From contig NZ_CP041217.1 in NCBI RefSeq assembly GCF_006542275.1, positions 434,001-498,000 on the forward strand: 64,000 bases of DNA, given 5' to 3'. The stretch comes from Saccharibacillus brassicae (GTDB lineage: Bacteria > Bacillota > Bacilli > Paenibacillales > Paenibacillaceae). Both the position numbers and the translations under genes were made by a program. The notes below the pieces were generated by a model that was not told where the DNA came from, searched no databases, and saw nothing but the letters and a program-made list of their open reading frames with translations. This document shows, in pieces, positions 12,064-14,092 of this stretch (position 1 is the stretch's first letter; every line of letters begins with the position of its first letter).

Positions 12064-13401
12064 TTATTCGATAGAGGGCTCGCCGACGTTCCGGCGTTCT
12101 TCTCCCTGCCGCAGACCGAGTACGCCGTTCATCTGCTCCAGCAGGCTGCTTCCGCCGCTGAGCGAGATCGTCCCGATCTTTTCGCAGATTTTCTCCACGA
12201 ACTCCAGCTCTTTGAGCCGGTACAGCGTCGCGTTCTCGTCCATCAGCTTGGCCGTGTTCAGCAGGCTGCGGGTCGAAGCCGTCTCTTCGCGCCGGGTGAT
12301 CATGTTGGCCTGCGCTTTTTTCTCCGCCAGCAGCACCGTATTGAGAATGGCACGGATCTCGCCCGGCAGAATGACGTCTTTGAGTCCGGCCGCGAGGAAT
12401 TCTACGCCGTAATCGGCGCCGCTCGCTTTGAGCCGGCCCAGCACGAATTCGCCGATCTCCTGCTTCATGCGCAGCAGATCGTCCAGTTTGAGCGTGCCGA
12501 CGTACTCGCGCAGCAGCAGCTGCAGCTGGACGTACACCTGATCTTCGAAGTTTTTGATCTCCGCCGCCTGCAGCGGATCGACGATCCGGTACTGGCAGAC
12601 GAAGTTCAGGCGCAGCGACACTTTGTCTTCCGTCAGAATCTCCTGGCCTGTCATATCGAGCTGCTGCCTGCGCAGATCGAACTTTTTGACCGTGACGGAC
12701 GCCGAGCCGTTCCAGAAAAAGCTTCGGCCCGGCGCCAGCTGCCGCTGCAGCTTGTTGTCGAAATACAGCAGGCCGGTCTCGTGACTTCCCACCTCGACCG
12801 TCTGCACCGCGCTTGGCCCGATCTTTTCCAGAATTGCCCGTCCGATCTCCGGCCCGATCTCCGGCGTCCGAAGGTCGACACGACTAAAGGTATGCTCGCG
12901 CGATTCGTTCCAGTAGGCGTAACGTCCGGTCGACAGCAGGTTTTTGAACCGTCCGTTCTCCAGATGGAGCGCATATTCGCCGTCGCCGACTTCCACCGTG
13001 CTGAGCTGCCGCATCAGCTCGGAATCTGCCGCGTACAGACGCACGTCCATGTCCGGAACGCCATTCGCGTTGATCCGGCCGGCTGCTCCGCTGTCCGAAG
13101 GTCGATATTCGAACGGCTCGGCCAGGCTTTTGAAAACCACTTTGCGGGTGTGGTCCGTCCAGCTCCAAAAGCGGTGCCGGCCCGGCATCAGCAGACGGAC
13201 GTAGCGGGTATGTTCAAACAGCAGCGCGCGTTCCCCGTCTTGGACTTCGACGGTGCGCAATCCCGCGCCGAGTTCGAGCACGCCGGGCAGGAAGACCGAT
13301 TCTTTTTTCGCTTCTCCCGGACGAACGTTCGGACCGGGCATTCCCGGAATTTTGCGGCCGTGCGGTGCGTGTATATTCGACTGATTTGAATTTGAATTCA
13401 T
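12064..13401 (-). CDS. Slipin-family SPFH/Band 7 protein with three N-terminal repeats
   Basis: 445-residue protein. Three copies of a motif of about 32 residues occupy 50-81, 135-166 and 201-232; each reads roughly VEVxDGExALxFxxxRxxxLLxPGRxxFW and includes a near-invariant PGR/TGR and an aromatic FW/YW. The SPFH/prohibitin core follows at about 250-400 (VSLRLNFVCQYRIVDPLQA, then ILPGEIRAILNTVLLAEKKAQANMITRREETASTRSLLNTA). No membrane helix is obvious. The start is the ATG at 13401 with AAGGAGG 8 bases upstream; the longer frame to 13806 is non-coding and covers the structured RNA region. Slipins scaffold oligomers. In several bacteria slipin genes sit in RNA-repair (rtcB-type) operons. None of those other genes is in the window, but a tRNA-like RNA is encoded just upstream. 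The RNA link is inference. Confidence 0.88.
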   Translation of the reverse strand: MNSNSNQSNIHAPHGRKIPGMPGPNVRPGEAKKESVFLPGVLELGAGLRTVEVQDGERALLFEHTRYVRLLMPGRHRFWSWTDHTRKVVFKSLAEPFEYRPSDSGAAGRINANGVPDMDVRLYAADSELMRQLSTVEVGDGEYALHLENGRFKNLLSTGRYAYWNESREHTFSRVDLRTPEIGPEIGRAILEKIGPSAVQTVEVGSHETGLLYFDNKLQRQLAPGRSFFWNGSASVTVKKFDLRRQQLDMTGQEILTEDKVSLRLNFVCQYRIVDPLQAAEIKNFEDQVYVQLQLLLREYVGTLKLDDLLRMKQEIGEFVLGRLKASGADYGVEFLAAGLKDVILPGEIRAILNTVLLAEKKAQANMITRREETASTRSLLNTAKLMDENATLYRLKELEFVEKICEKIGTISLSGGSSLLEQMNGVLGLRQGEERRNVGEPSIE

Positions 13402-13569
13402 GGATGGTTCCTCCTTGGAATCTTTGCGGCGGAAGTTCGCACGGCCGTATGCGCGGAGCCCGGCTTGAGCCGGCTTCGGCTGCGCACGGCAAGCGGGAAT
13501 CGAGCGGCTGGGCAGCGCCGGTCCCGACTTCGGACCGCCCCCCTCTCCGTCGTTCTTCGCTTGCTCGCC

Positions 13570-13602
13570 GCAGCTTCGGCCGGCGGAATCCGCCGGAGCT
13601 GC
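13570..13602 (-). other. Very stable hairpin in the slipin leader
   Basis: GCAGCT/AGCTGC outer arms and a perfect inner CCGGCGG/CCGCCGG with a 3-base loop. There is no T run, so it is not a terminator. It lies between the tRNA-like element and the slipin ribosome site. Confidence 0.55.
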
Positions 13603-13679
13603 AAAGCGCGTTCGGGCGCCGGGCCCCCAGTAGGCAGCCCGCCGGAACTTCCTTCCCCAAAGATCATCATTTGTTGTAG

Positions 13680-13743
13680 CTCCATTGAACGTGGAGTGCT
13701 CTACCCAGAGCTTGCGCCTAAGCAAGTGGGGAGTCGAACCCCA
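13680..13743 (-). ncRNA. Circularly permuted tRNA-like element upstream of slipin
   Basis: Read on the minus strand, four contiguous hairpins follow tRNA logic in a rotated order. First comes a T arm (13727-13743): stem TGGGG/CCCCA with a canonical 7-base loop TTCGACT. Immediately next is an acceptor-like stem closed by a loop (13711-13726): CTTGC-TTAGGC-GCAAG. Then a D-arm-like hairpin (about 13698-13711): GCTC-TGGGTA-GAGC with the GG pair needed to dock on the T loop. Last is an anticodon-arm-like hairpin (13680-13696): CTCCA-CGTTCAA-TGGAG with a 7-base loop. The order T arm, acceptor, D arm, anticodon arm is that of a tRNA opened in the variable loop. It cannot be a decoding tRNA: U33 is G, there is no 3' CCA end and the acceptor is closed. 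The tRNA mimic of bacterial Y RNAs (YrlA) is the nearest known parallel. Transcription is not proven. Confidence 0.55.
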
Positions 13744-13762
13744 AATAGTCGCGTCTGCCTCT

Positions 13763-13934
13763 GCGAACGCTTCTTCCGGCATACCGCGGCGCAGAGCGCC
13801 CGGCACCGCCGGACTATCGAAGTCCTGGCCTTACGGGGAAGGCGTTCGCGAATCCCTGCTTGGGATCTGAAGCCATTGTCGCCTATTCGCGCAGCGGGGA
13901 ACAGGGCGGAACTATGGCGACTGAATAAGTCGCC
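13763..13934 (-). ncRNA. Multi-helix structured RNA region, 5' part of the slipin leader
   Basis: A long-range stem pairs 13763-13770 (GCGTTCGC on the minus strand) with 13842-13849 (GCGAACGC), extended by 13773-13777 with 13837-13841. It encloses hairpins at 13788-13800 (GGCGC/GCGCC) and 13811-13825 (GGACT/AGTCC). Outside it are hairpins at 13852-13866 (ATCCC/GGGAT) and 13916-13934 (seven-base perfect stem GGCGACT/AGTCGCC). None has a T run. Together with the tRNA-like element this suggests a folded RNA of about 250 bases transcribed toward slipin. No promoter of good quality was found between it and the terminator at 13993-14024. Confidence 0.4.
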
Positions 13935-13992: not shown

Positions 13993-14024
13993 AAAAGGGA
14001 GCAGCCCCCGATCGGGCCGCTCCC
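13993..14024 (-). terminator. Terminator of the ECF/ABC operon
   Basis: Stem GGGAGC-GCCC with GGGC-GCTCCC (13997-14024). The minus-strand tail is TTTTGCTTTT. It lies 69 bases after the permease stop; the stem could act in both directions. Confidence 0.75.
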
Positions 14025-14092
14025 TTTCCCCTTTACAAAATCCCATCTCTGTCATGTGCACCGCGTACTCAAAACGATGATCTGCGTATCGC

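Follow-up and report, generated by a model that had tools for sequence, protein, structure and literature searches.

A permuted tRNA-like module in the leader of a slipin gene of Saccharibacillus brassicae and its relatives

The window, i.e. the whole 64,000-nucleotide stretch of Saccharibacillus brassicae DNA that was analysed (contig NZ_CP041217.1, positions 434,001 to 498,000), contains a tRNA-like module whose parts stand in permuted order and which lies upstream of a slipin gene on the minus strand. The module recurs with covarying stems ahead of slipin orthologues in related genomes, and the RNA that contains it is almost certainly a slipin-linked repair RNA. Many bacteria repair RNA after tRNA cleavage, and the finding bears on the non-enzymatic parts of this process, as it provides a conserved RNA-protein pair with a defined structure and a covariance model. 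Members occur in tractable bacteria, e.g. E. coli, related slipin genes are preceded by tRNA mimics in both permuted and normal order, and a link of RNA repair to vault-like proteins is possible.

Structure and covariation of the permuted module

All four arms that an earlier note had described on the slipin strand could be read in the DNA between positions 13680 and 13743 (minus strand). The T arm (13743-13727) has the stem TGGGG/CCCCA and the loop TTCGACT, and the closed acceptor hairpin (13726-13711) has the stem CTTGC/GCAAG and the loop TTAGGC, these 6 nt closing the acceptor with CCA absent. The D arm (13711-13698; GCTC/GAGC, loop TGGGTA) shares its first G, at 13711, with the acceptor hairpin, and the anticodon-like arm (13696-13680; CTCCA/TGGAG) carries a 7-nt loop, CGTTCAA, without U33. 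The order of these parts, which the note had likened to that of a tRNA cut open in the variable loop, was borne out by comparison across relatives far above chance. The coordinates proposed there, 13680-13743, are those of the tRNA-like part, but the whole RNA is larger, with a leader of about 430 nt. ARAGORN reported no tRNA genes in the window and detected no functional tRNA gene at the module, and Rfam 15 at gathering cut-offs gave no matches in the window or in 14 loci from relatives. When 73 nt were folded alone, the result was not significant (z -1.45, 18 of 200 shuffles equally good) and the best fold merged the acceptor and D arm. As this isolated fold is unremarkable, the case for the module rests on comparison.

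A covariance model of the tRNA-like module (R1, 64 positions) matched the window with 70.7 bits (E 5e-20), but R1 was not specific, giving matches in 296 of 299 genomes of the class. Its matches to the junctions of tandem tRNA genes reached 51.8 bits, and at all 26 such loci that were checked (L087-L112) ARAGORN found a tRNA pair at the R1 site. Since R1 also fits tandem tRNA junctions, a second model (R2) was built from the R1 module and two conserved upstream hairpins, and it matched the window with 127.4 bits at 13680-13831. Within this match, the upstream scaffold (13788-13825, minus strand) comprises hairpin A (13825-13811; GGACT/AGTCC), the intervening GCGGTGC (13809-13803) and hairpin B (13800-13788; GGCGC/GCGCC).

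The check that had been proposed in the note, a covariance model with a search for covarying pairs, revealed covariation in alignments that were fitted to the structure and are thus biased in its favour, with the D stem outside the modelled pairs. In alignment A4 (R2, 55 rows), 95.5% of cells pair and changes on both sides were seen in 25 of 26 pairs, including 11 of 11 pairs in hairpins A and B; the covariation score was 0.589, compared with 0.180 for shuffles (0 of 500 as high) and at most 0.066 for slid controls. A4 includes one row in antisense (the minus strand of L008) and retains the weak rows of E. coli, Photobacterium and L046-L048. Alignment A2 (R1; 53 rows, 47 distinct) gave 92.2% pairing cells, both-side changes in 13 of 15 pairs and a score of 0.388, versus 0.121 for shuffles and at most 0.064 for slid controls. 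One exploratory alignment was made with L028 and L017 left out. In the unfitted alignment A1, RNAalifold recovered the T stem and the anticodon stem and missed that of the acceptor, which MAFFT had placed out of register.

The T loop starts with TTCGA in 38 of 44 loci and with TTCAA in five. An arm of 5 bp whose 7-nt loop has equivalents of U33 and A37 was present in 28 of the 44 loci, against a mean of 0.5 after shuffling, and the Paenibacillales loci that keep this arm carry ten different 'anticodons'. The window is among the 16 loci lacking an arm of this form, and several loci have degenerate D and anticodon arms.

Linkage to slipin and the larger leader RNA

The slipin protein was used to search 147 relative genomes, and 51 of them contained an orthologue (E 9.2e-42 or better). 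R2 yielded 45 sites of at least 52.1 bits in the same genomes, the next-best site scoring 42.8 bits. Strong sites were found in 45 of the 51 genomes with an orthologue and in none of the 96 without one, a co-occurrence that strongly supports the tie between tRNA mimic and slipin put forward in the note. All 45 strong sites lie on the contig and strand of the orthologue, on its 5′ side, and 44 of them end 192-350 nt ahead of the slipin protein match; in the genome G059 the RNA and a slipin fragment overlap by 92 bases. Weak R2 matches, presumably tRNA arrays, occur in 146 of the 147 genomes, and what separates the slipin-linked sites from them is solely the drop from 52.1 to 42.8 bits. At 52 bits no RNA was found in six genomes with an orthologue (G090, G019, G037, G079, G067 and G097), three of which (G019, G037 and G079) are matched weakly, at 28-35 bits. 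Some of the slipin matches at orthologue loci with no strong RNA match (L045-L048, L050, L051) are shorter or truncated.

A second T-arm-like stretch was seen around GGTTCGATTCCTGC, about 637 nt upstream of slipin, in four loci (L013, L015, L018 and L019). It scored 12-15 bits with R1, looked coding-like by eye, probably lying within coding sequence, and was set aside.

The slipin gene occupies 12064-13401 on the minus strand with its ATG at 13401, and the module lies about 280 nt upstream of this start. Conserved motifs extend from far upstream down to the slipin ribosome-binding site, and the whole structured leader RNA is proposed to span 13402-13831 (minus strand), candidate ends that derive from the R2 match and from a long-range helix. 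The 5′ strand of this helix (13645-13665) consists of GATCTTTG at 13665-13658 and GGAAGTTC at 13652-13645, and its 3′ strand (13419-13438) of GAACTTCC at 13438-13431 and CAAAGATT at 13426-13419. The slipin Shine-Dalgarno sequence, AAGGAGG at 13410-13416, could be read two bases past the helix. A 441-nt leader segment (13395-13835) folded with a z of -1.97, and 2 of 100 shuffles were as good. Its minimum-energy fold contained all 16 pairs of the long-range helix as well as hairpin B and, in full, the stems of the T, acceptor and anticodon arms, while hairpin A was absent and none of the four D-stem pairs formed.

The pairing was examined by a duplex test in 39 of 44 loci, L025, L030, L036 and L042 being dropped for start codons that were not credible and L023 for having no start. 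Native duplexes had a mean of -47.1 kcal/mol, compared with -39.8 kcal/mol for swapped pairs, which include close relatives that retain the pairing, and -37.3 kcal/mol for shuffled sequences. In 38 of the 39 loci the native duplex was stronger than the mean shuffle; in nine (L014, L016, L017, L021, L024, L026, L034, L035 and L037) it stood mid-list or worse among the swaps. In 33 of the 39 loci the last pair lies 12-22 nt ahead of the start codon, the final 12 nt before the start codon having been excluded by design. With start codons chosen by script, the distance from T loop to start codon was 326-372 nt in 36 of 43 loci.

A pattern scan detected a terminator-like hairpin with a T run at 13993-14028 (minus strand), upstream of the RNA, and no terminator between the RNA and slipin. 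The upstream site suggests, as far as such a pattern can, a separate transcription unit, and the simplest reading is one transcript in which the leader is followed by slipin. A conserved block, GTCGTAATACTTTCGCCATGTTCG, was also observed upstream of the RNA in L022, L029, L031, L035 and other loci, and is perhaps a promoter or operator.

RNA-repair genes, the slipin protein and the proposed function

Neighbouring genes were compared in 20 relatives' loci of 12-13.5 kb, with Pfam run on one member per gene cluster. A homologue of RtcB, KptA, PNKP_ligase or RlaP was found within about 6 kb in 11 of them, and a WYL pair in seven; none of RtcB, KptA, Pnkp ligase and RlaP was seen in the other nine. 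As the RNA-slipin pair stands among RNA-repair genes in relatives, the pair most likely belongs to a system dealing with broken tRNA. The note had spoken of a different arrangement that lacks rsr, rtcB and rtcA. It is true that no repair gene was seen near the slipin locus of the window, but the description misleads, given these relatives and the two RtcB genes (3.789 Mb and 4.168 Mb), the RlaP gene (3.642 Mb) and the TROVE gene that the same genome carries at other sites. The TROVE (Rsr-like) gene, at 3.787 Mb beside the first RtcB gene, matched part of the profile with 27.9 bits, and the slipin RNA lies at 0.447 Mb of the same contig. A YrlA-like RNA (32.2 bits, below the cut-off) was observed upstream of the TROVE gene and the RtcB gene downstream (L119:6575-9810); judged by gene content, this is a second, Ro-type repair locus of the genome, parallel in design to the slipin pair. 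This genome thus encodes a YrlA-like RNA and the slipin RNA at separate loci.

The likeness to YrlA (RF02553) pointed out in the note is real but partial, the window scoring 20.6 bits and L027, the best of four relatives at a low threshold, 43.0 bits against a gathering cut-off of 69. Both RNAs have a T arm, a closed acceptor and a D arm in permuted order, and YrlA likewise occurs in RtcB operons. YrlA, however, opens in the anticodon stem into the Ro-binding stem, whereas the slipin RNA opens at the variable loop and keeps an anticodon hairpin; the model positions of the stem that joins the tRNA-like part of YrlA to the Ro-binding stem are gaps in the window match. The gene partner of YrlA is rsr and that of the RNA described here is slipin; no rsr-like gene adjoins this RNA (TROVE gene at 3.787 Mb, RNA at 0.447 Mb). 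Because of the different opening point, and because a YrlA-like RNA already accompanies the TROVE gene, the identification as YrlA was rejected.

Red algae and archaea have permuted tRNA genes that are processed into working tRNAs. In these genes, as in the slipin RNA, the 3′ half stands ahead of the 5′ half, but they are split elsewhere, and the slipin RNA has a 6-nt loop on its acceptor and no CCA. Burroughs and Aravind reportedly predicted in 2016 a 'novel tRNA-like molecule' as the cognate RNA of SPFH/Band-7 modules in RNA repair. The RNA so described resembles the present one in its SPFH/Band-7 gene, adjoining tRNA-like RNA, RNA-repair neighbours and RlaP-type nucleotidyltransferase. An SPFH/Band-7 gene indeed adjoins the slipin RNA, and the linkage to RNA repair was found in the family (11 of 20 relatives' loci) and not at the window's own locus. 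If the prediction is of this kind, the pairing of RNA and Band-7 protein was already known in that form; added here are the permutation at the variable loop with its covariation, the test for co-occurrence with slipin, the long-range helix next to the ribosome-binding site, the counterparts in normal order, and a locus that stands alone in a genome with repair genes at other sites.

The 445-residue slipin contains a Pfam Band_7 domain (E 6.6e-22, residues 204-373). In the predicted model, three five-stranded beta repeats precede the SPFH/Band 7 domain and C-terminal helices; pLDDT averages 70.6 and is mostly 75-93 in residues 41-100 and 121-340. By 19-residue hydropathy alone, the window's slipin has no strongly hydrophobic stretch (maximum 1.2); the maxima in two relatives were 0.8 and 1.9, so that one of the three slipins has a stretch of 1.9. 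Foldseek aligned stomatins over about 240 columns, and among the matches listed only Major Vault Protein (MVP) covered slipin over its full length (431-457 columns), with poor global superposition (TMq 0.33-0.40, rmsd 32-34 Å). In the VIA list, which consists mostly of SPFH folds and barely probes the N-terminal repeats, MVP matched residues 200-374 only (Z 12.2, 170 residues, rmsd 2.4 Å) and stomatin scored higher (15.5). A fold common to the slipin model and MVP would be no demonstration of function.

In the literature searched, no slipin-linked tRNA-like RNA was found, which is no sign of its being unpublished, as key papers lie outside the scope of that literature; the portions of PMC7824862 and PMC7159879 that were available make no mention of one. 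According to passages of the respective papers, rtcB and the slipin gene alr0740 of Anabaena are both up once TrcR is removed (PMC10272220), rtcB and slipin are among genes that changed, perhaps owing to an antibiotic (PMC9938897), the rtc locus of P. aeruginosa includes an SPFH gene (PMC13086221), and an rsr-yrlBA-rtcBA operon exists (PMC7790460).

The reading we prefer, with a probability of somewhat under one half (about 0.45), is that the RNA is a partner of slipin made as its leader, with a tRNA-like domain recognised by tRNA-handling proteins. The RNA would form one half of a slipin (SPFH/Band-7) RNA-repair module and would be transcribed with slipin from its own start; its tRNA-like domain may be recognised by slipin itself or by repair enzymes such as RtcB, Pnkp ligase, RlaP or KptA; and a slipin ring or shell might have it as its cognate RNA, by analogy with Y RNA and Rsr. 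The helix adjoining the Shine-Dalgarno site suggests that the state of the RNA could also be coupled to slipin synthesis. A repair module is favoured, at the level of sequence, by the co-occurrence, the covariation, the repair neighbours in relatives, rtcR and RlaP in Citrobacter and RlaP in E. coli, and further by the links in the available portions of the Anabaena and P. aeruginosa papers, the genome's own TROVE-RtcB locus, the lack of a strongly hydrophobic stretch in the window's slipin and the full-length MVP alignment. Against it stand the window locus and nine of 20 relatives' loci without repair genes, six of 51 orthologues without the RNA, the degenerate D and anticodon arms, the slipin with a hydropathy of 1.9 and the MVP rmsd of 32-34 Å.

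Next in preference comes a cis-acting sensor, which is possible though less probable: an anticodon nuclease or tRNA-processing enzyme would read the tRNA-like domain that slipin carries in its 5′ UTR, and cleavage or binding would rearrange the leader and alter access to the Shine-Dalgarno site, so that tRNA damage controls slipin translation. The fixed position of all 45 strong sites directly 5′ of slipin fits control in cis equally well, and the spacing of 326-372 nt, the pairing that ends close to the start codon and is stronger in native than in swapped duplexes, and the canonical anticodon arm in 28 of 44 loci point the same way. The Shine-Dalgarno site itself, however, lies outside the long-range helix, the native pairing is unremarkable in several loci, and the anticodon loops of Burkholderia are short AAA or GAAA caps that would make poor bait for an anticodon nuclease. 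The same canonical loops in Paenibacillales would suit a decoy that absorbs anticodon nucleases or competes for tRNA-modifying enzymes with no need of slipin, an idea raised for YrlA in a passage of PMC7790460; we consider it unlikely in view of the strict linkage to slipin and of a scaffold that is conserved beyond the mimic. That the RNA serves as Y RNA for the TROVE protein of the genome is very improbable. The weak YrlA matches of the window and L027 and the presence of a TROVE gene agree with it, but all scores are under the cut-off, the TROVE gene has an adjoining RNA of its own, the window match has gaps exactly where YrlA opens, and the flanks are those of the slipin scaffold. Least credible of all is a functionless, degenerate remnant of tandem tRNA genes. 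R1 does match tandem tRNA junctions, and tRNA-like copies occur in Burkholderia and Photobacterium; the covariation, the co-occurrence, and the acceptor closed by 6 nt with no CCA argue against it.

An RNA partner of slipin might further be envisaged as a bacterial vault analogue. The eukaryotic vault contains Major Vault Protein together with vault RNA. The slipin system resembles it in the alignment of MVP along the whole predicted slipin (Foldseek) and in its small RNA partner, but slipin is short, its RNA is tRNA-like, the rmsd is 32-34 Å, and its shell is a conjecture. We regard as improbable the joint claim that a soluble, MVP-like slipin ring or shell surrounds a tRNA mimic from its own mRNA leader, that the mimic, a circularly permuted tRNA, perhaps came from a tandem pair like those in Burkholderia and Photobacterium, and that its anticodon arm is bait whose cutting and re-ligation set slipin translation.

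Counterparts in other phyla

Slipin relatives were found on replicons filed as plasmids in Burkholderia, Photobacterium, E. coli, Citrobacter and Subdoligranulum, and none was found in phages at E 1e-5. A copy in a Clostridia metagenome matched R2 with 46.4 bits. The gene order in Citrobacter is divergent rtcR, leader, slipin and RlaP, and slipin and RlaP also adjoin in E. coli. The leaders of E. coli and Citrobacter both contain a T arm and a closed acceptor, and R2 gave weak matches at the expected place (20.0 and 14.9 bits, respectively). Motifs seen by eye ahead of proteobacterial leaders resemble what we take to be sigma-54 promoters. Some proteobacterial leaders match tRNA in Rfam. Each of three Burkholderia records has, upstream of slipin, one normal-order tRNA-like domain detected by ARAGORN (L114:5631-5726, L133 and L134) and a truncated one recognised by eye; the complete domain has its anticodon loop reduced to AAA or GAAA. 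Photobacterium shows two normal-order tRNA-like copies in the corresponding place. The permuted form would result if a tandem tRNA pair lost its outer halves, and the change may have gone in either direction. Of 5426 complete E. coli genomes, 1620 covered at least 80% of the stretch comprising the E. coli leader and slipin start. A gene of the zeta-toxin family (L118:6990-7916; Pfam Zeta_toxin, E 1.2e-40) was also observed next to slipin-RlaP in E. coli strain WAT.
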